This document shows positions 3,986 through 32,340 of a stretch of 50,438 nt of DNA, one piece after another. Numbering within the stretch: the first letter of the stretch is position 1; every line of letters starts with the position of its first letter. The DNA lies in contig JAEUWI010000053.1 of the NCBI GenBank assembly GCA_016791475.1, positions 1 to 50,438 of the forward strand, written 5' to 3'. The stretch comes from Candidatus Hydrogenedentota bacterium. Its GTDB lineage: Bacteria; Hydrogenedentota; Hydrogenedentia; Hydrogenedentales; JAEUWI01. The notes beneath the pieces are model-generated. The model was not told the origin of the DNA. It was given only the letters and a program-made list of their open reading frames with translations, and made no database searches. A program made the position numbers and the translations under genes.

Positions 3986-4096
3986 GACGAGAGATGATTC
4001 CTGCTGTGTTTGCGGTGCTGCCCGCGCCGCGATATTCTGGCGCCGTCGGGCGGGTTCATCCCGACCGGTGCGCGGTTTCCAGGTGGGGACCCGTCA

Positions 4097-5332
4097 CTAT
4101 GCGTCGCCGCCACTATCCTGCTTGATATCGACGCGCACGCGGGTAATCCGGTTGGCCTTGCCTTCCAGAATGGTAATCCGGAATGGCGGATGGTTGATGA
4201 CCTCGCCGATCAGGGGGATGCGTCCGACGGTGTGGGTGACCCAGCCGCCCACGGTTTCCACTTCGGTGTCGTTGATTTCGGCGCCCATCTTTTCCGCGGC
4301 GACGGCCAGTTCCAACTGGGCGTCGATCACGAATGCGCCGGGGCTGATTTCGCGAATGCGCGTCTCCGCCTTGTCGTACTCGTCGTGAAATTCGCCAAAG
4401 ATCTCTTCCAGCACGTCTTCCTGCGTAATCAGTCCGTCCGTGCCGCCATACTCATCGGTCACCACGGCGATGGGCTGGCCCGTCTCGCGCATCTTCTCCA
4501 GCAGGTCATCCAGTTTCATGGAATCGGGCACGTGGAGCACTTCGCGCACAAAGCCCGCGATGCCGTCGTCGTGATGTTTGGCCCGGAGCACGTCGAAGGC
4601 ATTGATAACCCCGATCACATTATCGATGGAGTCCCGGTAGATGGGCAGGCGCGTGTAGCCGCTTTCCACCAGCTTCGCGATGAGTTCGGCCCGACCGGCG
4701 GTTTCGGGGAGGGCGACGATGTTGATTCGGGGCACCATAATTTCCCGAACCTGGCGCGACTGGAGGTCCATGACCGAGTGGATCATTTCCTTTTCTTCTT
4801 CCATGATCGCGCCGCGATCCGCGCCCTCGTCCACGAGCACCCGCATGTCCTCCGCGGTGCTCATGATCACGGCCTCGCCTTCGCGGAGGCCATCGGCCAG
4901 CCGGGACAGGCGCCCGGAGAACCAGGTGAAGGGCAGGACCACCGGCGCCAGCACGACATCAAAGAAACGCATGACCGGAAGCAGTTGCAGGGCAAGCCGG
5001 GTGGGGTGGATTCGGAAAATACTCTTGGGGGCCACTTCGCCAAACATGAGGAAAAGGGGCGTGGCGATGGCCATGCTCCAGAGCGGGCCCGCCTCAATGG
5101 TGAGGGCCATGGTGCCCGCCACGAGGGCCAGGTTGGTGCCCACGAGCACCAGGGCCATCATCCGCGCGGGGCGTTTCAGGTAGGCGTTGAGGCGCTGGGC
5201 GCGGCGGTTTTTCTCTTCGTCGGCCATATGGCGGATGCGGATGCGGTTTACCCCGGCGAATCCGGTTTGATAGCCGGCAAAAAAAGCGCTCAGGGCGATT
5301 CCCAGCAGGAAAACGATGATCGTCGTGCTCAT
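4097..5332 (-). CDS. CNNM/CorC-HlyC family transporter (second of tandem pair)
   Basis: The 411-residue protein has an N-terminal DUF21 (CNNM) membrane domain of about 190 residues (GIALSAFFAGYQTGF, MFGEVAPKSIFRI). A cytoplasmic CBS pair follows (VREIMVPRINIVALPE, GVINAFDVL, VVTDEYGGTDGLITQEDVLEEIFGE), then a C-terminal CorC/HlyC domain (GAFVIDAQLELAVAAEKMG). Relatives such as CorB/MpfA export Mg2+ or regulate divalent cations; here the role is inferred from the family only. The start codon overlaps the stop of the upstream paralogue in an ATGA, indicating translational coupling and possibly a hetero-oligomer. Confidence 0.88.
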   Translation of the reverse strand: MSTTIIVFLLGIALSAFFAGYQTGFAGVNRIRIRHMADEEKNRRAQRLNAYLKRPARMMALVLVGTNLALVAGTMALTIEAGPLWSMAIATPLFLMFGEVAPKSIFRIHPTRLALQLLPVMRFFDVVLAPVVLPFTWFSGRLSRLADGLREGEAVIMSTAEDMRVLVDEGADRGAIMEEEKEMIHSVMDLQSRQVREIMVPRINIVALPETAGRAELIAKLVESGYTRLPIYRDSIDNVIGVINAFDVLRAKHHDDGIAGFVREVLHVPDSMKLDDLLEKMRETGQPIAVVTDEYGGTDGLITQEDVLEEIFGEFHDEYDKAETRIREISPGAFVIDAQLELAVAAEKMGAEINDTEVETVGGWVTHTVGRIPLIGEVINHPPFRITILEGKANRITRVRVDIKQDSGGDA

Positions 5333-6864
5333 CCCCGGGCCTCTTCCTGGGTTGCGGGGCTCTGCAGGATCTGAATCTTCAGCCGGGCGACCCGTTTGCC
5401 GTCCACTTCCTCCACGGTATAGCGCACGCCTTCGTGTTCGATGCGATCGCCCACTTCCAGCACCTTGTCGCTCTGTTCCATGAGGAATCCGGCCACGGTC
5501 GTGTGCTCGTCATCGTTCACGGGTACGCCCGTGAGGGCCTCCAGTTCATCCAGCGGCAGACTGCCGTCCACCTGGTAGACGTTCTGCCGCACCTGGGTGT
5601 AGAGGGGCGGTTCGTCGCGCCAGTCGTCTTCCAGCTCGCCCACGACCTCGCGGAGGGCGTCCTGAAGGGTCACCAGGCCCTCGGTGCCGCCGTATTCGTC
5701 CACGACGATGGCGAGGTGGGAACGGAGGTGCTGAACCGATTTCATGAATTCCAGCACGGTCATGGTTTCAGGCACATAGTTGGCCTTGCGCAGCAGGGGT
5801 TTGATGGGCGCGCCGAGTTCGCCCCGATCCACGAGGGAAAGGAGGTCCTTGGCATAGAGGATGCCCACGATGTTGTCCAGATTCTCACGGTAGGCCGGCA
5901 TGCGGGAAAACTCGTGGGTGCAGATCAGTTCCAGGGCTTCGGCCACCGTGGCCTCGTCGTTCAGGGCCACGATATCGGGCCGGGGCACGAGGATCTCCCA
6001 GAGCATGACATCGTTCACATTGAGGATGCCCTGGATCATTTCGGCCTCCTCCTTTTCGATGGCGCCGGTGGCCTCGCCCTCGGAGAGGATGGAGGCAAAA
6101 TCGGCGTCGGTCATGAAGGGGGCCGGTTGCACGCGGCTGAAGCCTGTGACGCGGAAGAGGAGCCCCACGAGCCAGACGACGGCCACGCGCAGGGGCACGA
6201 GCAGGACGCAGGCCAGGTGGAGCGGGAGCGCCGCGCCGCGGGCGAAGCCTTCGCTGTTGCGGACCACGGCCAGCTTGGGCACCACATCGCCGAAGAAGGC
6301 CAGAAACAGGGTGCAAACGGCGGCGGCGGCCACGTAGTGAAAGGGCTGGACCAGAAACTGGCCCGTGGCCAGCAGCACGGGCTGGACCAGTACGATGCTG
6401 AGGAGGACCTTGGCGATGGAATTGCCCATGAGCACGGAGGTGAGGAGCTCGTGGGGCCGGAGCATGAGCCGACCCACCAACTGATTGAGCACGCTCTCGT
6501 CTTCGCGCAGCGCGCGGATGCGCGCGGGGCTGAGCGAAAAATAGGCGATTTCACAGGCGGAAAAGAAAGCGGACAGACACAGGAGCCCCAGGGCGAGGGC
6601 CCCCATGGCCGGGAGCCCGGAGGCGTCCATCCAGCCGACGAGCCCGCCCGAAAGGGGAATCGGCGGGCGATCCGCGATCTCCGGTCCCTGTCCCACGCCG
6701 CTCAATACGAGGGCGAGACCGACCCAGGCCGCCGCAACCAGCAGGCTTTTCCGCCACGTTCCAGAACCACTACTGCCATCTTCCAATGCGCTACCGCGCT
6801 CCACCTCAAGGGGACGTACAACCCGGCGATAGAATCGCTTACGGGTCCATCCGCCATGCGGCAT
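5329..6864 (-). CDS. CNNM/CorC-HlyC family transporter (first of tandem pair)
   Basis: This 511-residue protein is the longer paralogue. A hydrophobic segment near residues 40-60 precedes the DUF21 domain (LLCLSAFFSACEIAYFSLSPARI, GDVVPKLAVVRNSEG). The CBS pair includes EILVPRPDIVALND and IVVDEYGGTEGLVTLQDALREVVGE. The CorC/HlyC domain begins at QNVYQVDGSLPLDELEAL. The assigned start overlaps the end of ybeY by 26 bases and has no strong ribosome binding site, so the first 35 or so residues, which do not match the family, may be mis-assigned. The order phoH-HD-ybeY-CNNM is a widely conserved cluster. Confidence 0.85.
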   Translation of the reverse strand: MPHGGWTRKRFYRRVVRPLEVERGSALEDGSSGSGTWRKSLLVAAAWVGLALVLSGVGQGPEIADRPPIPLSGGLVGWMDASGLPAMGALALGLLCLSAFFSACEIAYFSLSPARIRALREDESVLNQLVGRLMLRPHELLTSVLMGNSIAKVLLSIVLVQPVLLATGQFLVQPFHYVAAAAVCTLFLAFFGDVVPKLAVVRNSEGFARGAALPLHLACVLLVPLRVAVVWLVGLLFRVTGFSRVQPAPFMTDADFASILSEGEATGAIEKEEAEMIQGILNVNDVMLWEILVPRPDIVALNDEATVAEALELICTHEFSRMPAYRENLDNIVGILYAKDLLSLVDRGELGAPIKPLLRKANYVPETMTVLEFMKSVQHLRSHLAIVVDEYGGTEGLVTLQDALREVVGELEDDWRDEPPLYTQVRQNVYQVDGSLPLDELEALTGVPVNDDEHTTVAGFLMEQSDKVLEVGDRIEHEGVRYTVEEVDGKRVARLKIQILQSPATQEEARG

Positions 6865-22631: not shown

Positions 22632-22661
22632 AGAGTAGCAAAAAACGACAGGGGGTGTCAA
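22632..22661 (-). promoter_or_regulatory. Putative rpoB promoter
   Basis: On the minus strand a perfect -35 TTGACA (22661-22656) is followed after 18 bases by TACTCT (22637-22632), with TG two positions ahead as in an extended -10. Transcription would start near 22625 and give a leader of about 115 bases before the rpoB ATG. Confidence 0.6.
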
Positions 22662-22687
22662 ATTTGATTCCCAACCTGTGAAAGGGA

Positions 22688-23161
22688 TTAAGTTCCGGTC
22701 AGTCCGGCTTTCGCATACTCGTCGAGATCATGGGCGTTTAGTGCCATGGCTCGCCCGCTGTCACATCGGTTTAGGTCGGTAATCGGTATCTTGGCTGCCA
22801 CGGCCCGGAGAGACTTTTTGTCACTTGAACGGTAACCAAAGATCTCCTGGTGGCAAGGGTCAGGGGGAATAACACCACTCTCAGTAGGCTCCACGTGGCC
22901 TTCAGGAAAGTAGTCGGCGACGTCAAATTCCCAGAAACACGGCGGCTCGCCGATGATGGTTGGGTAATAGCGCTCTAGATGGCTACAAACTGACCCGCTT
23001 GTCCTGCGGGCGCAGGACGCGTCAAATACGGAGAGCCCGTTGTTATCGCTCGATGGCGTGACAGCCGCACTGCTGAGCCGCTTCTTGTGCGCACTGTAGT
23101 GGTACTTAAGGTTGATGACCCTGACAACCAACTTTCCCGGCACTTCAGCTTTTTCAGCCAC
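22688..23161 (-). CDS. Unrecognised protein, third gene of a three-gene cassette
   Basis: This 157-residue soluble protein belongs to no family I can name. It has an aromatic, Cys- and His-containing core (HLERYYPTIIGEPPCFWEF, PPDPCHQEIFGYRS) followed by AAKIPITDLNRC. It starts at a GTG at 23161 with GGAGG 10 bases upstream. That start lies inside the preceding gene, with which it overlaps by 187 bases in the -1 frame. GC content looks lower than in the neighbouring housekeeping genes, suggesting acquisition. It ends 27 bases before the rpoB promoter. Confidence 0.6.
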   Translation of the reverse strand: MAEKAEVPGKLVVRVINLKYHYSAHKKRLSSAAVTPSSDNNGLSVFDASCARRTSGSVCSHLERYYPTIIGEPPCFWEFDVADYFPEGHVEPTESGVIPPDPCHQEIFGYRSSDKKSLRAVAAKIPITDLNRCDSGRAMALNAHDLDEYAKAGLTGT

Positions 23162-23520
23162 CCTTCGGCATCCTCCGGCGAGAGCCCAGTTTCGTCCTCG
23201 CAGTATTCCCCGTGCCTTTCGACAAGCAAGTCAACCCGCCCCTTGTCAGTAACGGTCAGCTCAATCTCCAAGTCTTCCGATGGATAAAGACTAATAAGCA
23301 GTTCGCCGTTTACGCCAGGAAAAACTTCTTGAACTGAATATCCCAATTGGTCAGAAAAGGTGGAAAGGCGCCGGGCGAGAGCAACGGTTACCATCGAAAA
23401 CGACAATCCCTCGCCGTAGTGCCACCCATGCCTCAGTTTGCTGAATTCTTCAAGACGCAATTCGACACTAGCCGGACGCTGTGATGCGGTCAAGAGTCTA
23501 CACTCCAATCCGTTTGTCAT
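22975..23520 (-). CDS. Unrecognised protein, second gene of a three-gene cassette
   Basis: The open frame codes for 181 residues, but only about the first 130 look like a natural protein. These run from MTNGLECRLLTASQ through RHGWHYGEGLSFSM and an alternating beta segment (GELLISLYPSEDLEIELTVTDKGRVDLLVERHGEY) to GWLKKLK. The remainder is Ser/Thr/Arg-rich and reads as a shadow of the overlapping downstream gene. Either the stop has been lost, the overlap is real, or ribosomes shift -1 at the GAAAAAG run near residue 127 to make a fusion. The start overlaps the preceding stop as ATGA. No function is known to me. Confidence 0.55.
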   Translation of the reverse strand: MTNGLECRLLTASQRPASVELRLEEFSKLRHGWHYGEGLSFSMVTVALARRLSTFSDQLGYSVQEVFPGVNGELLISLYPSEDLEIELTVTDKGRVDLLVERHGEYCEDETGLSPEDAEGWLKKLKCRESWLSGSSTLSTTTVRTRSGSAVRLSRHRAITTGSPYLTRPAPAGQAGQFVAI

Positions 23521-23798
23521 TCGGTATCACCTTCCAAGCTGGCTTTGACAACGTCGGCAGTTAGCATCTCTCGCCCCGTTTTCTTTTCCAGCAAGGACAC
23601 TACTTCGGAAAGCTTTTCAGCGAGTGATTTTGCGATAGTGTATGACAGATTTATTACAACCACGGGTTCTTCATTACACTTTCCTACGACAACAATATCT
23701 CCAGTGCTTAGTGAATTCACGAAGCCGTTGATATAAAGCTTCGGGACTGCTGGGTCATGAATTGCACTCTGCAATTGTGAATCATAGTCGTCGGTCAT
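23517..23798 (-). CDS. Small conserved protein, first gene of a three-gene cassette (DUF3467-like?)
   Basis: This 93-residue soluble protein is built around LYINGFVNSLSTGDIVVVG, VVVINLSYTIAKSLAEKLSEVV and LLEKKTGREM. The pattern of an NG segment, a D strand and an AK-L helix recalls DUF3467-type proteins, but the match is by eye and weak. An ideal ribosome binding site (AAGGAG, 8 bases before ATG) and a recognisable promoter upstream suggest it leads the cassette. Its stop overlaps the next start. Base composition is less GC-rich than the neighbours. Confidence 0.65.
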   Translation of the reverse strand: MTDDYDSQLQSAIHDPAVPKLYINGFVNSLSTGDIVVVGKCNEEPVVVINLSYTIAKSLAEKLSEVVSLLEKKTGREMLTADVVKASLEGDTE

Positions 23799-28713: not shown

Positions 28714-28827
28714 GCGCTACCACCACCAGCGGGGTGGAGTAAGACGTGAATCCCGCCCGAATCACACACCCGACGGGCGGTCGTGTCTGGATCCTTTTGG
28801 CGGGCAAAAACGTGGGAGAGCACGAAC

Positions 28828-31800
28828 GTGAGTTGTTTCATGAAGGTAACAGGTCGAAAAATTGGGGGGCTCACTTGGATGGGGGGATTGTCGGCCCTGG
28901 TGCTGGGGGGCTCGGGGGCTTTCGCCCAGGTGACCGTAGACAGCGCCAACCTCCGCTTCGAATCCTTTGCCAACGTGTCGGCTTCATCCCGTAACGCGAG
29001 CCTGGTGGCCGACAACGATAGCTTCAATGAAACGGTGACTATCGATCCCGGCTTCGAGGGCACCATCAACCGCCCCATCAACCTCAGCGCGAGCGTAACC
29101 GGCGAGGTGGGAAATTCCGGCAGCGCCTCGGTGATTGACGCGTCCACCTTTGCCTACGCCAACACCCCCACGGGTATCTCCGTCACGGGGGTGCTGGATT
29201 ACGACATCGTCGGGGCGGCGAACGACGGCACGGAGGATATCTCCGGCGGCGACGCGTCCACCCGCTTAATCCATCAGGCGACCTGGAACATCACCGTGAC
29301 GGGCAACGACGGGGTCTTGACCTTTTCCTACGAGGGGGTCCACCTCGCCTCCGGCGGCGGCGGCGGTGCCTCCTTCCCTTCGGTATCCTTCGTCGTGGAG
29401 CCCCAGGGCGTGCCGAACATGCAGAATATCGTGCGGTCCGTCACTTGCACGGCGACTAACTGCCCACCGCTCTCGGAATGCGAGCCGACGAATACCTGCG
29501 GGCCCAACTTCATCGCCATACCCACCACGCCCCTGCCCCCGGGCCAGTACCGAATCACCTTTCTGGCGCAGACCGAGACCCAGGACAATATGACGATGGA
29601 GGTCCAGGGTGATCTGGAACTCCGGGTGGAAAACGCCGACTTCTGCAACCCGCGCTGGACCATTGGGGAGTCCGGTAATTTCGCCGACGAAGCCAACTGG
29701 GACCCGCCCGTGGCGCCGGTGGACAATGGCGAGGGCTGCGCCAATCTCACCTTTGCAGAGTCGGGCGAATACACGGTCACGCTGCCCGGCGGCGCTTCGG
29801 CCAATCGGGTCAGAGTTTCCGGCGGCAGCCCCACCTTCAGCGGCGGAACCCTCGCGCTGGGCGGCGCGGGCGATGAACCGGCATTGGGCGTCTTCGCGGA
29901 TGGGCGCCTGGTGCTGGAGGGCACGACGCTGACGGCCGCCGAGGTGGCCATTGGCCCGACCGCCGCTGCGGGCGAGGCCTTTTCCTTTCTCCAGATTGCG
30001 CCGGGCGCATCGCTCACCGGTACCGGCGGCGTCTCGCTGGGTCGGGACATCGGTGCGCGGGGCGAACTTTCTCTGGGCGGCGGCGGCGCGGATGCGTCTC
30101 TCGACGCGGGCCTGGGGCTCTTCGTGGGCGGCGCGGGCGAAGGCCGGATCCTGGGCATAGCGCCGTTGTCGATTGAGGTGCCCGCGGGTGACTTTTCCCT
30201 CGCGCTGGAATCGGGCAGTGAGGCCTCGGTGGACCTGACGGGCAATGGGGAAACGGATGATGCCGCCACGGTGGACCTTTCCGGCACGCTTCTGATCGGT
30301 GCGGGCGGCACGGGCATCTTTGCCCTGAACAACCATGGCACGATCAACGCCGACAAGATGAATCTGGGCGCGCTGGAAGGCGGCTCGGGCACCTTTGCCG
30401 CCAGTGGCTCCGAGACGAGGGCCACCATCATCGACAGCGTTGTGGCGGGCGATGAAGGCACGGGCCGAATCCTGCTGAGCGAAGGCGCCCGCATCACGGC
30501 GGCCACCCTCACCCTGGCCGAAGGCGAAGGAAGTACGGGCGATATCGAGCTGGCCGGTCCAGGCACGCACCTCGATATCGTCGATGTGGTCCAGACCGGC
30601 AATCAGGGTGTCGGTGAAATCGAAGTGACCAATGGCGCGCGCCTCACGGCGGGTGATCTGAATCTGGGAATCCTGACCGGCGGTATTGGTTCGCTGACGT
30701 TGCGCGATGGCGAAGCGGGCCTCGCCAATCTCACGGTCAATGGGAGCCTTATCGCGGGCCTGGGTGGTCTCGGCACGATCACGGCCGAAGGCGGCGCGGA
30801 AGTCTCCATAACCGACAGCTTTCTGCTGGGCGCCCTGGGCGGGGTCGTGGGCACCGCGACGATCACCGGCGAGATCGCTTCGGAGGCCAATCCGAATCCG
30901 CCTCAATCACACTGGACCATTGGCGATGAAATCCAGATTGGCGTTGATGGCGCGGGCGAACTCACGATTAGCGACAACGCGCGCGTGGAAGCCCGGGCCA
31001 TGCGGCTTGCTGTGGGCGCGGACAGCACGGGCGAGTACCGCGCCAGCGGTCTATTCGCCACTACGAAGATCGTCGATGAATTGGTCATCGCCGGCGCGGG
31101 TGACGGCACGGTAACCCTGGAGAGTGCCGCGCCACTCCGGGCCAGCGCCGCAATCCTGGGATCGGCCACCGGCGGCCTGGGTATCCTCCGCCTTTTCGAA
31201 AACGCGCTGGTGGACCTCGCCGAGCCCGCGCCCTCTGAAGGGGCCACGCTGGCCCCCGGCTTTCTTGAAGTGGGCAAGAACGGCAACGGCCTGGTCGAAC
31301 TTTTCGACCAGGGCACCACGCTGCACTGCCTTGAAGCCATCCTGGGCGGTGCGAGCGCCGACGCGGGCGGCACGGTCAATGTGGACACCGACGCCACCTT
31401 CACCTGCGACGGCAGTGTTTCCGTGGGCAATTCCGCCGGTGCGGGTTTGCTCCGTGTGGCCAACGGCGGCAATGTGGGAATTGGCTCCCAGCTCCTCATT
31501 GGTACTCGGGGCCTGGTGGTGGCCGGCGCGGGCGCGAATGTACAGAGCAGCTTTGTTTCCAACGGTCGGATCCAGATCCTGCTGGAGGTGACCATACCGC
31601 GACCTGAAGAGAAGTCCAGCACGGCCGCGGATAAAGGCGTACCAACGGGTCCCGTCGTGATCGAAGGCGATCTTGTGCTGGAGGAAGACGGAATCCTGGA
31701 GATCGAGGCCGGGGCCGAGTCCATGCTCCAGGTCGGCGGCAACGTCACCCTGGCGGGGGCGCTGCGCATCGTGCTGGTGCCCGGACGGGTCTATGGCGAC

Positions 31801-32340
31801 GACGTCTTGAGCCAGTTGGCCAGCTTCGGCGGGACGGTGGACGGTGCGTTTGCCGCTGTCGAGTTCGTCAACGCGCCCGAAGGCTTCGACGCGGCTGTGA
31901 CCATCGAGAACGGCGAATTGATCCTTGACATCGAAAGCGACGGGGTCGGCGGTGAAGGCGAGGGCGAGGGTGAGGGTGAAGGTGAAGGCGAGGGCGAGGG
32001 CGAGGGTGAAGGTGAGGGCGAGGGCGAGGGCGAGGGCGAGGGCGAGGGTGAGGGCGAAGGTGAGGGCGAGGGCGAGGGCGAGGGCGAGGGTGAAGGCGAA
32101 GGTGAGGGCGAGGGCGAAGGCGAAGGCGAAGGCGAAGGCGAAGGTGAAGGCGAGGGCGAGGGTGAGGGTGAAGGCGAGGGCGAAGGTGAGGGCGAAGGTG
32201 AGGGCGAAGGAGGTGGTTGTCCAATGTCGGGTGCGAAATCGCTGAGCGATTTTCTGGGTGACCTTTTCCTCCTTGGTTTGGCCGTTTCTGTGTTATTGGG
32301 TTTTGGGCGATTGCGGCAGCGATCAGGCGAATCCGCCTGA
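28828..32340 (+). CDS. Giant exported beta-repeat protein with (Glu-Gly)43 stalk and C-terminal sorting-like tail
   Basis: The 1,170-residue protein starts with a signal peptide ending SGAFAQ. A Thr/Ser/Gly/Asp-rich domain and a Cys-containing segment (CTATNCPPLSECEPTNTCG) follow. About residues 320-900 carry irregular Gly-rich repeats with patterns such as LALGGAGDEPALGVF and LNLGILTGGIGSLTLRDG, suggestive of a beta-helix surface protein. A jelly-roll-like end (LQVGGNVTLAGALRIVLVPG) precedes 43 Glu-Gly units (residues 1043-1128). The last 42 residues hold GGCPMSG, a hydrophobic helix (LGDLFLLGLAVSVLLGFG) and RLRQR, a layout like MYXO-CTERM or PEP-CTERM sorting tails. GTG at 28828 with GGGAG 9 bases upstream is chosen over ATG at 28840. 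Its role is probably cell-surface or extracellular. Confidence 0.8.
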   Translation: MSCFMKVTGRKIGGLTWMGGLSALVLGGSGAFAQVTVDSANLRFESFANVSASSRNASLVADNDSFNETVTIDPGFEGTINRPINLSASVTGEVGNSGSASVIDASTFAYANTPTGISVTGVLDYDIVGAANDGTEDISGGDASTRLIHQATWNITVTGNDGVLTFSYEGVHLASGGGGGASFPSVSFVVEPQGVPNMQNIVRSVTCTATNCPPLSECEPTNTCGPNFIAIPTTPLPPGQYRITFLAQTETQDNMTMEVQGDLELRVENADFCNPRWTIGESGNFADEANWDPPVAPVDNGEGCANLTFAESGEYTVTLPGGASANRVRVSGGSPTFSGGTLALGGAGDEPALGVFADGRLVLEGTTLTAAEVAIGPTAAAGEAFSFLQIAPGASLTGTGGVSLGRDIGARGELSLGGGGADASLDAGLGLFVGGAGEGRILGIAPLSIEVPAGDFSLALESGSEASVDLTGNGETDDAATVDLSGTLLIGAGGTGIFALNNHGTINADKMNLGALEGGSGTFAASGSETRATIIDSVVAGDEGTGRILLSEGARITAATLTLAEGEGSTGDIELAGPGTHLDIVDVVQTGNQGVGEIEVTNGARLTAGDLNLGILTGGIGSLTLRDGEAGLANLTVNGSLIAGLGGLGTITAEGGAEVSITDSFLLGALGGVVGTATITGEIASEANPNPPQSHWTIGDEIQIGVDGAGELTISDNARVEARAMRLAVGADSTGEYRASGLFATTKIVDELVIAGAGDGTVTLESAAPLRASAAILGSATGGLGILRLFENALVDLAEPAPSEGATLAPGFLEVGKNGNGLVELFDQGTTLHCLEAILGGASADAGGTVNVDTDATFTCDGSVSVGNSAGAGLLRVANGGNVGIGSQLLIGTRGLVVAGAGANVQSSFVSNGRIQILLEVTIPRPEEKSSTAADKGVPTGPVVIEGDLVLEEDGILEIEAGAESMLQVGGNVTLAGALRIVLVPGRVYGDDVLSQLASFGGTVDGAFAAVEFVNAPEGFDAAVTIENGELILDIESDGVGGEGEGEGEGEGEGEGEGEGEGEGEGEGEGEGEGEGEGEGEGEGEGEGEGEGEGEGEGEGEGEGEGEGEGEGEGEGEGEGEGEGEGEGGGCPMSGAKSLSDFLGDLFLLGLAVSVLLGFGRLRQRSGESA
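31954..32211 (+). repeat. Hexanucleotide tract coding for 43 Glu-Gly units
   Basis: There are 43 in-frame copies of GAR-GGN, almost all of them GAG/GAA followed by GGC/GGT. Variation is confined to third codon positions, so the amino-acid sequence appears conserved while the DNA has drifted. On the minus strand the tract reads as Pro-Ser repeats, an artefact of composition. Confidence 0.97.

Follow-up and report, generated by a model that had tools for sequence, protein, structure and literature searches.

We found that the window, by which we mean the whole stretch of 50,438 nucleotides that was analysed, carries a cassette of three small genes (A, B and C) in which C starts inside B and is read from the same strand in another frame. 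The long overlap is retained in ten distant copies of the cassette, and this main point was missed by the initial annotation. Over the ten loci, the C proteins are 140–149 aa long, the B proteins are 168–243 aa long, and the overlap covers 157–304 nt.

The three-gene cassette and its position beside rpoB

The three overlapping small ORFs described earlier on the minus strand were borne out at 23517–23798, 22975–23520 and 22688–23161. The features of this part of the window are as follows:

23517..23798, minus strand: gene A, ORF of 93 aa, DUF3467-like small protein
22975..23520, minus strand: gene B, ORF of 181 aa
22688..23161, minus strand: gene C, ORF of 157 aa as first read; likelier 22688..23143 or from 23131
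22975..23131, minus strand: DNA read in two frames (157 nt), encoding the tail of B and the N-terminal third of C
22645..22663, no strand: limit of similarity to same-genus genomes (blastn against G001, G002 and G003)

The stop codon of A and the start codon of B overlap by 4 nt (ATGA), and the stretch shared by B and C measures 157, 169 or 187 nt for a C start at 23131, 23143 or 23161, respectively. The GC content of the cassette is 0.518 compared to 0.622 for the window, and only 0.7% of the 1111-nt windows sampled were as low, which agrees with the earlier statement that the GC content falls below that of the surroundings. Good ribosome binding sites had also been described, and the one of A was confirmed, with GGAG ahead of the ATG. 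The proteins remained unrecognised, as stated before: no Pfam or NCBIfam model matched A, B or C above its curated cut-off, the best matches being those of A to DUF5839 in Pfam (E 0.042, 14.4 bits vs. a cut-off of 23.7) and of A in NCBIfam (E 0.0052, 16.5 bits vs. a cut-off of 175). Sequence searches of the PDB with A, B and C gave matches at chance level only, and in a PHROGs scan of ten proteins, among them A, B and C of the window, A alone of these three was matched (E 0.082). A, B and C are real genes and make up a unit of low GC content immediately upstream of rpoB.

The initial annotation gave the cassette its own promoter. The results of the consensus scan upstream of A did not bear this out, since one site was found vs. 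0.7 expected by chance; by eye, TTGACA and TATCAT are present there 19 nt apart, a spacing that exceeds the range of the scan. Around the cassette in the window, no terminator was found beyond chance, and no direct repeats flank the insertion.

It had also been claimed that the cassette replaces the rplJL genes in front of rpoB. In the window's genome (a 7.7-Mb assembly in 529 contigs), rplJ lies on contig C66, where it adjoins an L7/L12-like ORF recognised by eye. We applied tblastn with these two proteins to search for rplJ and rplL in the stretches upstream of rpoB of four relatives, G001, G002, G003 and G005, and obtained no match better than E 0.8; a weak rplJ match (E 0.006) was found in G007, which is more distant, near a contig start upstream of rpoB. 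The position of rplJ on C66 and the lack of an rplJ or rplL match before rpoB in the four relatives rule out the replacement. Comparison by blastn showed that nucleotide conservation of the rpoB leader stops at 22645 (G001) or at 22663 (G002 and G003), the cassette sits just beyond this end, and none of the three same-genus genomes has a match to A, B or C. The cassette thus occupies a variable spot beside the rpoB leader, and rplJL was not displaced.

Two other observations were made in the window. The segment 34872–36632 is 83% identical to the G001 stretch directly upstream of rpoB (L046, 15348–17113), indicating that a rearrangement parted this block from rpoB either in the window's genome or in G001. 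An ORF of 1185 aa at 28783–32340 contains, by eye, repeat-like stretches and a long low-complexity Gly-Glu run (GEGE) before a C-terminal hydrophobic segment.

Distribution of the trio and its looser relatives

Searches with a C profile detected ten places in nine genomes, the window included. At all ten, B is followed by C behind a small gene, in the same order, and the neighbouring genes, compared by eye, differ among the ten loci. The same trio in differing neighbourhoods marks a sporadic, travelling cassette; it had been asked earlier whether the three genes travel together, and they do so at all ten places. The trio matches no characterised housekeeping family.

In genome sets that overlap, and of which the first two contain the window's own genome, the C profile matched 4 places in the window's phylum (3 of 68 genomes), 5 places in 4 of 386 relatives, 1 place in 1 of 23 genomes of the class of G271, 3 places in 2 of 385 relatives of G271, and 5 places in 5 of 385 genomes of the class of G451. 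The carriers belong to Hydrogenedentota, to Alphaproteobacteria (L026, in G451, with four class-mates) and to one further group (G271); G271 is related to the window at the level of the domain only, and G014 belongs to the window's order. Pairwise identities are 24–58% (median 33) for the ten C copies, 12–44% (median 23) for the ten B copies and 22–54% (median 30) for the nine rows of A. A search for B in 147 relatives gave two further matches, and the A, B, C order was found at each of them. The small first gene is a homologue of A at nine of the ten places, and at L045 (2305–2559) an unrelated small gene of 84 aa stands in its place, suggesting that the first gene of the cassette is exchangeable. 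Plasmid and phage records had no tblastn match to B or C proteins, and E. coli genomes had no match to the cassette's DNA. IMG/VR gave 50 candidate stretches with the B alignment and 4 with one B protein, none of which was confirmed.

Three further loci contain looser relatives of the B type:

L022, 1438–2810: DUF3467-like gene, gene of a 220-aa NWDGEGA protein and gene of a 136-aa protein; overlap of 1 nt
L036, 498–2287: TIGR04255 gene, gene like the C-terminus of PDC-M32A and a possibly C-like gene; no overlap
L038 (G014:C230), 972–1860: B-like gene of 134 aa followed by a gene of 165 aa; overlap of 14 nt

L022 is possibly a cousin of the trio in the same order of bacteria. Comparison by hhalign of its third gene with C and of its second gene with B gave no support, and L022 was therefore not counted as a trio. 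At L036, the first gene matches TIGR04255 (E 1.7e-13), a family for which our literature search returned no paper, and the B relative matches the C-terminus of PDC-M32A (E 5.6e-17). The B proteins of the window and of L036 are homologous (probability 92%, E 6e-7), and hhalign aligned the third gene of L036 with C over 30 columns at 37% identity with a probability of 9.5%. Among the ten proteins scanned against PHROGs, the L036 B relative gave the best match (E 0.0017), to a family of unknown function. L036 looks like a split PDC-M32A and may explain the build of that candidate. L038 matches the B profile (E 2.2e-4) and is the second B-type locus in G014; its B-like gene contains GWDSYGAEPP, its 165-aa gene contains a GMSVNR motif, no A was seen, and it was not counted as a trio.

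The overlap of B and C and the open frame of B's tail

At all ten loci, C starts inside B with an offset of 2 modulo 3. The overlap measures 157 nt in the window, 190 nt in L004, 181 nt in L005, 157 nt in L024, 244 nt in L026, 304 nt in L030, 220 nt in L042, 289 nt in L043, 292 nt in L044 and 298 nt in L045, and the tail of B accordingly ranges from 52 to 101 codons. The lengths of both genes and the overlap are thus maintained among the orthologues at all ten loci. The looser B-type relatives have no long overlap (1 nt, none and 14 nt in L022, L036 and L038), and we conclude that the long overlap is specific to the trio subfamily.

The C starts were chosen from the alignment, in which they comprise five ATG, four GTG and one TTG (the window, as modelled) and fall within four columns at all ten loci. 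In the window, C can start at GTG 23161 (157 aa), GTG 23143 (151 aa) or TTG 23131 (147 aa), and GTG 23143 aligns with the GTG of four copies from the class of G451. The true length of C is probably 147–151 aa, and the 157 aa given at first would be 6–10 residues too long. Anti-Shine-Dalgarno pairing before the C start exceeded that at control positions when the loci were combined (P 1.5e-6); singly, P was below 0.05 at three of the ten loci, and it was 0.23 in the window. The part of C encoded in the overlap is strongly conserved and includes an invariant Cys, Cys and His. A start of C after the stop codon of B is ruled out by these strongly conserved residues inside the overlap.

To determine whether the frame of B is kept open by selection, we held the C protein fixed and permuted synonymous codons within its first 40 codons (5000 draws), a limit that was set after the shortest overlap was seen to be 52 codons. 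The results showed that the B frame contains no stop codon over the ten loci compared to 7.5 ± 1.6 expected (0 of 5000 draws were as low), where the ten loci are related and not fully independent. In the same region, the third frame contains 21 stops compared to 22.4 expected (P 0.39 by permutation), and from the stop of B to the end of C the B frame contains 30 stops compared to 28.7 expected. Under three codon-sampling nulls, the zero stops of the B frame compare with 12.6, 18.2 and 17.4 expected (0 of 2000 draws each); the third frame was mildly depleted of stops under two of these nulls (P 0.03–0.04) and not under permutation. Evidence from single loci is weak, the lowest P for the absence of stops being 0.035 (L044). 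For open length, the lowest single P was 0.013 (L044), and P combined over the ten loci was 5e-4.

Two tests did not show a constraint on the amino acids of the tail. In the B frame, the sum-of-pairs z was 8.4 compared to 6.3 in the third frame, with a mean pair z of 1.46 that is little above the 1.42 of the third frame, and codon identity at matching residues was 0.373 inside the overlap compared to 0.341 outside (P 0.20). The tail is poorer in Cys (0.003) than the permuted null (0.011 ± 0.002), to which we give no weight. The zero stops in the B frame, with controls that fit the null, suggest that selection holds the long tail of B open, and the two tests find no amino-acid constraint there.

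Predicted functions of B and C and possible explanations

The folded core of B is predicted at about residues 15–134, contains the motifs GWHYGEG and FPGVNGE, and is followed by a disordered tail. In the AF2 model (mean pLDDT 70.1, pTM 0.58), blocks of 70–96 extend over residues 21–130, and most of residues 134–181 are below 50. The overlap with C begins at B residue 130, close to the onset of disorder. Foldseek found nothing in the PDB at E ≤ 0.001 for B, its best match being the inhibitory subunit of methane monooxygenase (E 0.095). VIA-align related B to Mediator Med17 (Z 10.6) and T4 MotA (Z 8.8), and we draw no function from this shared fold.

C was modelled in the form that starts at TTG 23131 (AF2 mean pLDDT 86.1, pTM 0.82). 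Its first strand falls inside the overlap, and the model is confident from that strand on. The ten-member alignment contains an invariant Cys, Cys, His, Tyr, Trp, Gly, Asp, Cys-His and Cys, and the invariant Cys and His of the modelled protein are C40, C49, H51, C93, H94 and C123, which, judging from the alignment, could bind a metal or serve a different chemistry. Foldseek searches with C in the PDB and in viral models found nothing at E ≤ 0.001, and none of the ten C proteins matched a Pfam family. With VIA-align, only 2o0q and 7wvh_A among 150 chains reached Z 2; the values were Z 4.5 (rmsd 3.9, 100 aligned residues) for 2o0q and Z 2.7 for 7wvh_A, in a range (Z below 8) that may reflect merely a common arrangement. 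On the model, C thus appears confidently folded and has no clear match among solved structures.

We take 2o0q to be a DUF952 protein, in agreement with a search. The NAD glycohydrolase complex contributes the chain 7wvh_A, which we take, judging by its length, to be the glycohydrolase. The accessible text of one paper lists DUF952 and NADase_NGA among the ADP-ribosyltransferase families and describes clades with the triads H-H-h, H-Y-[EDQ] and R-S-E (PMC7955679). In our residue-level reading, strand 1 of C carries a near-invariant Arg, which is His in L026, and strand 2 carries a near-invariant Ser; what may be the third position of the triad has a conserved Cys-His near strand 5 and not Glu. 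The modelled C is weakly similar to the ADP-ribosyltransferase-like folds of 2o0q and 7wvh over most of its domain, but differs by its invariant Cys and His residues, has no evident catalytic Glu, and shows no match of sequence profiles (hhalign of the C profile with a segment of 2o0q, probability 0.2). A divergent ADP-ribosyltransferase-like enzyme is thus a weak lead for C from the models.

The shape of the operon had been compared with defence or toxin–antitoxin modules. A toxin–antitoxin-like layout was found, in that the operon is small and co-directional, B and C overlap in all ten copies, and the distribution within the phylum is sporadic (3 of 68 genomes). The comparison stands as far as B resembles PDC-M32A (see below), and it fails in that searches of Pfam, NCBIfam and PADLOC with A, B and C of the window, and of Pfam with the ten C proteins, gave no known toxin or antitoxin family.

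For the neighbourhoods, 66 ORFs of ≥180 aa within about 4.5 kb were picked by a crude composition score; some are surely in the wrong frame, one was swapped by hand for an ABC ATPase on the opposite strand, and at some loci a contig end shortens the flank, which on one side of L030 is 290 nt long. Among the PADLOC matches listed, which make up 25 of 55 family rows, clear defence genes stand beside at least one of the ten loci, L055, where we assigned by eye a type I methyltransferase and a specificity subunit. The clustering with defence genes that had been asked about earlier is thus weak. Two proteins each were listed for mad3 and mad8, and RtcR-type regulators and QueC were listed as well; we take all of these to be generic families. 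At L055, imperfect direct repeats (3998–4341 and 5758–6371) enclose the trio of G485 near type I restriction-modification genes. The repeats comprise 272 nt at 90% identity and 74 nt at 88% identity, and among the nine loci examined and the window they occur at the G485 copy alone.

In the PADLOC scans, B matched the C-terminal third of PDC-M32A (profile positions 257–358 of 376, best E 8.4e-6). Five of the ten B proteins matched each of two PDC-M32A models, which are 375–384 aa long, at E ≤ 0.1. The C-terminal third alone was matched and never the full length, and B appears, from sequence, to be distantly related to part of PDC-M32A. Among the eight trio C proteins scanned, the one weak PADLOC match was that of L042 to DrmD (E 0.021). 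The link of A to DUF3467 (PF11950) runs through the looser relative L022, whose A reaches 24.6 bits against the cut-off of 25 (E 2.7e-5); of the trio A proteins scanned, that of the window had no match and that of L024 scored 12.9 bits, both below the cut-off.

In the text available to us, PDC-M32 is listed as a candidate system in prophages (PMC12429752). The trio may be a variant of it, which we consider possible and yet unlikely: B would correspond to the C-terminal domain of PDC-M32A, a DUF3467-like small protein would replace the N-terminal part, C would be the second component, and the unit would act against phages. The match of B to PDC-M32A agrees with this, as does L036, which has a TIGR04255 gene, a B relative and a C-like gene in the same order, but the TIGR04255 protein of L036 has no match to PDC-M32A, and PDC-M32B was matched by none of the eight trio C proteins scanned (all except those of L026 and L044). 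The trio also differs from PDC-M32 in having a DUF3467-like small gene, no TIGR04255 gene and a long B/C overlap, while defence genes stand at only the locus or loci counted above, at least one of ten among the matches listed, and the PDC systems are themselves candidates.

The reading that we consider best, and hold tentatively, is that of a two-frame cassette in which B and C form a complex and C is the effector. A small three-gene cassette would be acquired sporadically, C would be translated from a separate start codon within B, and the same DNA would encode the floppy C-terminal tail of B and the N-terminal part of C in two frames. The computed results support the kept order, overlap and frame, the open frame of B, and the folded core of B and folded C. 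Beyond this, the disordered tail of B may bind or mask C within one complex, and the overlap may keep B and C co-produced and hard to separate. More weakly, C might be an effector, B its holder or regulator, and A a small exchangeable accessory, and the cassette might be a conflict module that works like a toxin–antitoxin or abortive defence unit. A more specific form of this reading is doubtful: B would be antitoxin-like, C would be a divergent ADP-ribosyltransferase-like effector, and the same 50–100 codons, conserved between distant bacterial groups, would encode in two frames both the disordered tail by which B binds its partner and the N-terminal domain of C. B and C would then be a locked pair, in which the loss or exchange of either gene would break the other.

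Three other explanations concern the overlap itself. The tail of B could be tolerated junk that arose when an ancestral B lost its stop codon near the C start, with C as the sole functional reading of the overlap; the little or no overlap of the looser relatives (1, 0 and 14 nt), the variable length (52–101 codons) and disorder of the tail, and the failure to find amino-acid-level constraint would all fit, but neutral tails should gather stops, whereas none was found against 7.5 ± 1.6 with controls that fit the null, and the overlap is retained in all ten copies. We consider this improbable. That C always lies in the −1 frame of B, at ten of ten loci, would also suit programmed −1 frameshifting to a B–C fusion, with C alone never made; against this stand a start codon within four alignment columns at all ten loci, ribosome-binding-site pairing above the control overall, the lack of a shared slippery sequence by eye, and the first strand of C, which is encoded inside the overlap and which a late shift would leave out, and we rate frameshifting as very unlikely. 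Finally, the 529 contigs of the window's genome make an assembly or sequencing frameshift conceivable as the origin of the window's overlap, but the same overlap and frame recur in nine other places in eight other genomes, and we reject this explanation.

The two-frame cassette can be set beside known overlapping genes. In phage lambda Rz/Rz1 and in Bacillus comS within srfA, the second gene starts inside the first in another frame and is fully nested, whereas the C of the trio lies only partly inside B; our literature search found no work joining overlapping genes and Rz1. According to the available text of a 2008 survey of 338 genomes, 715 overlaps between same-strand genes exceeded 60 bp, of which none was judged real, and the longest real one was put at 56 bp (PMC2478687). 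As described in that text, the same-strand overlap of holD and rimI is also conserved among orthologues, but it measures at most 56 bp and is conserved within Enterobacteria, compared to the 157–304 nt of the trio across distant bacteria (PMC2478687).

The conserved overlap of B and C exceeds the longest one accepted in the available text of the 2008 survey (PMC2478687) by a factor of three to five, with later literature searched non-exhaustively. It offers a clear example from nature in which to study whether cells maintain long two-frame coding, and for what reason, in a small, scattered and uncharacterised unit that is related in part to a defence candidate and has a confidently modelled C.
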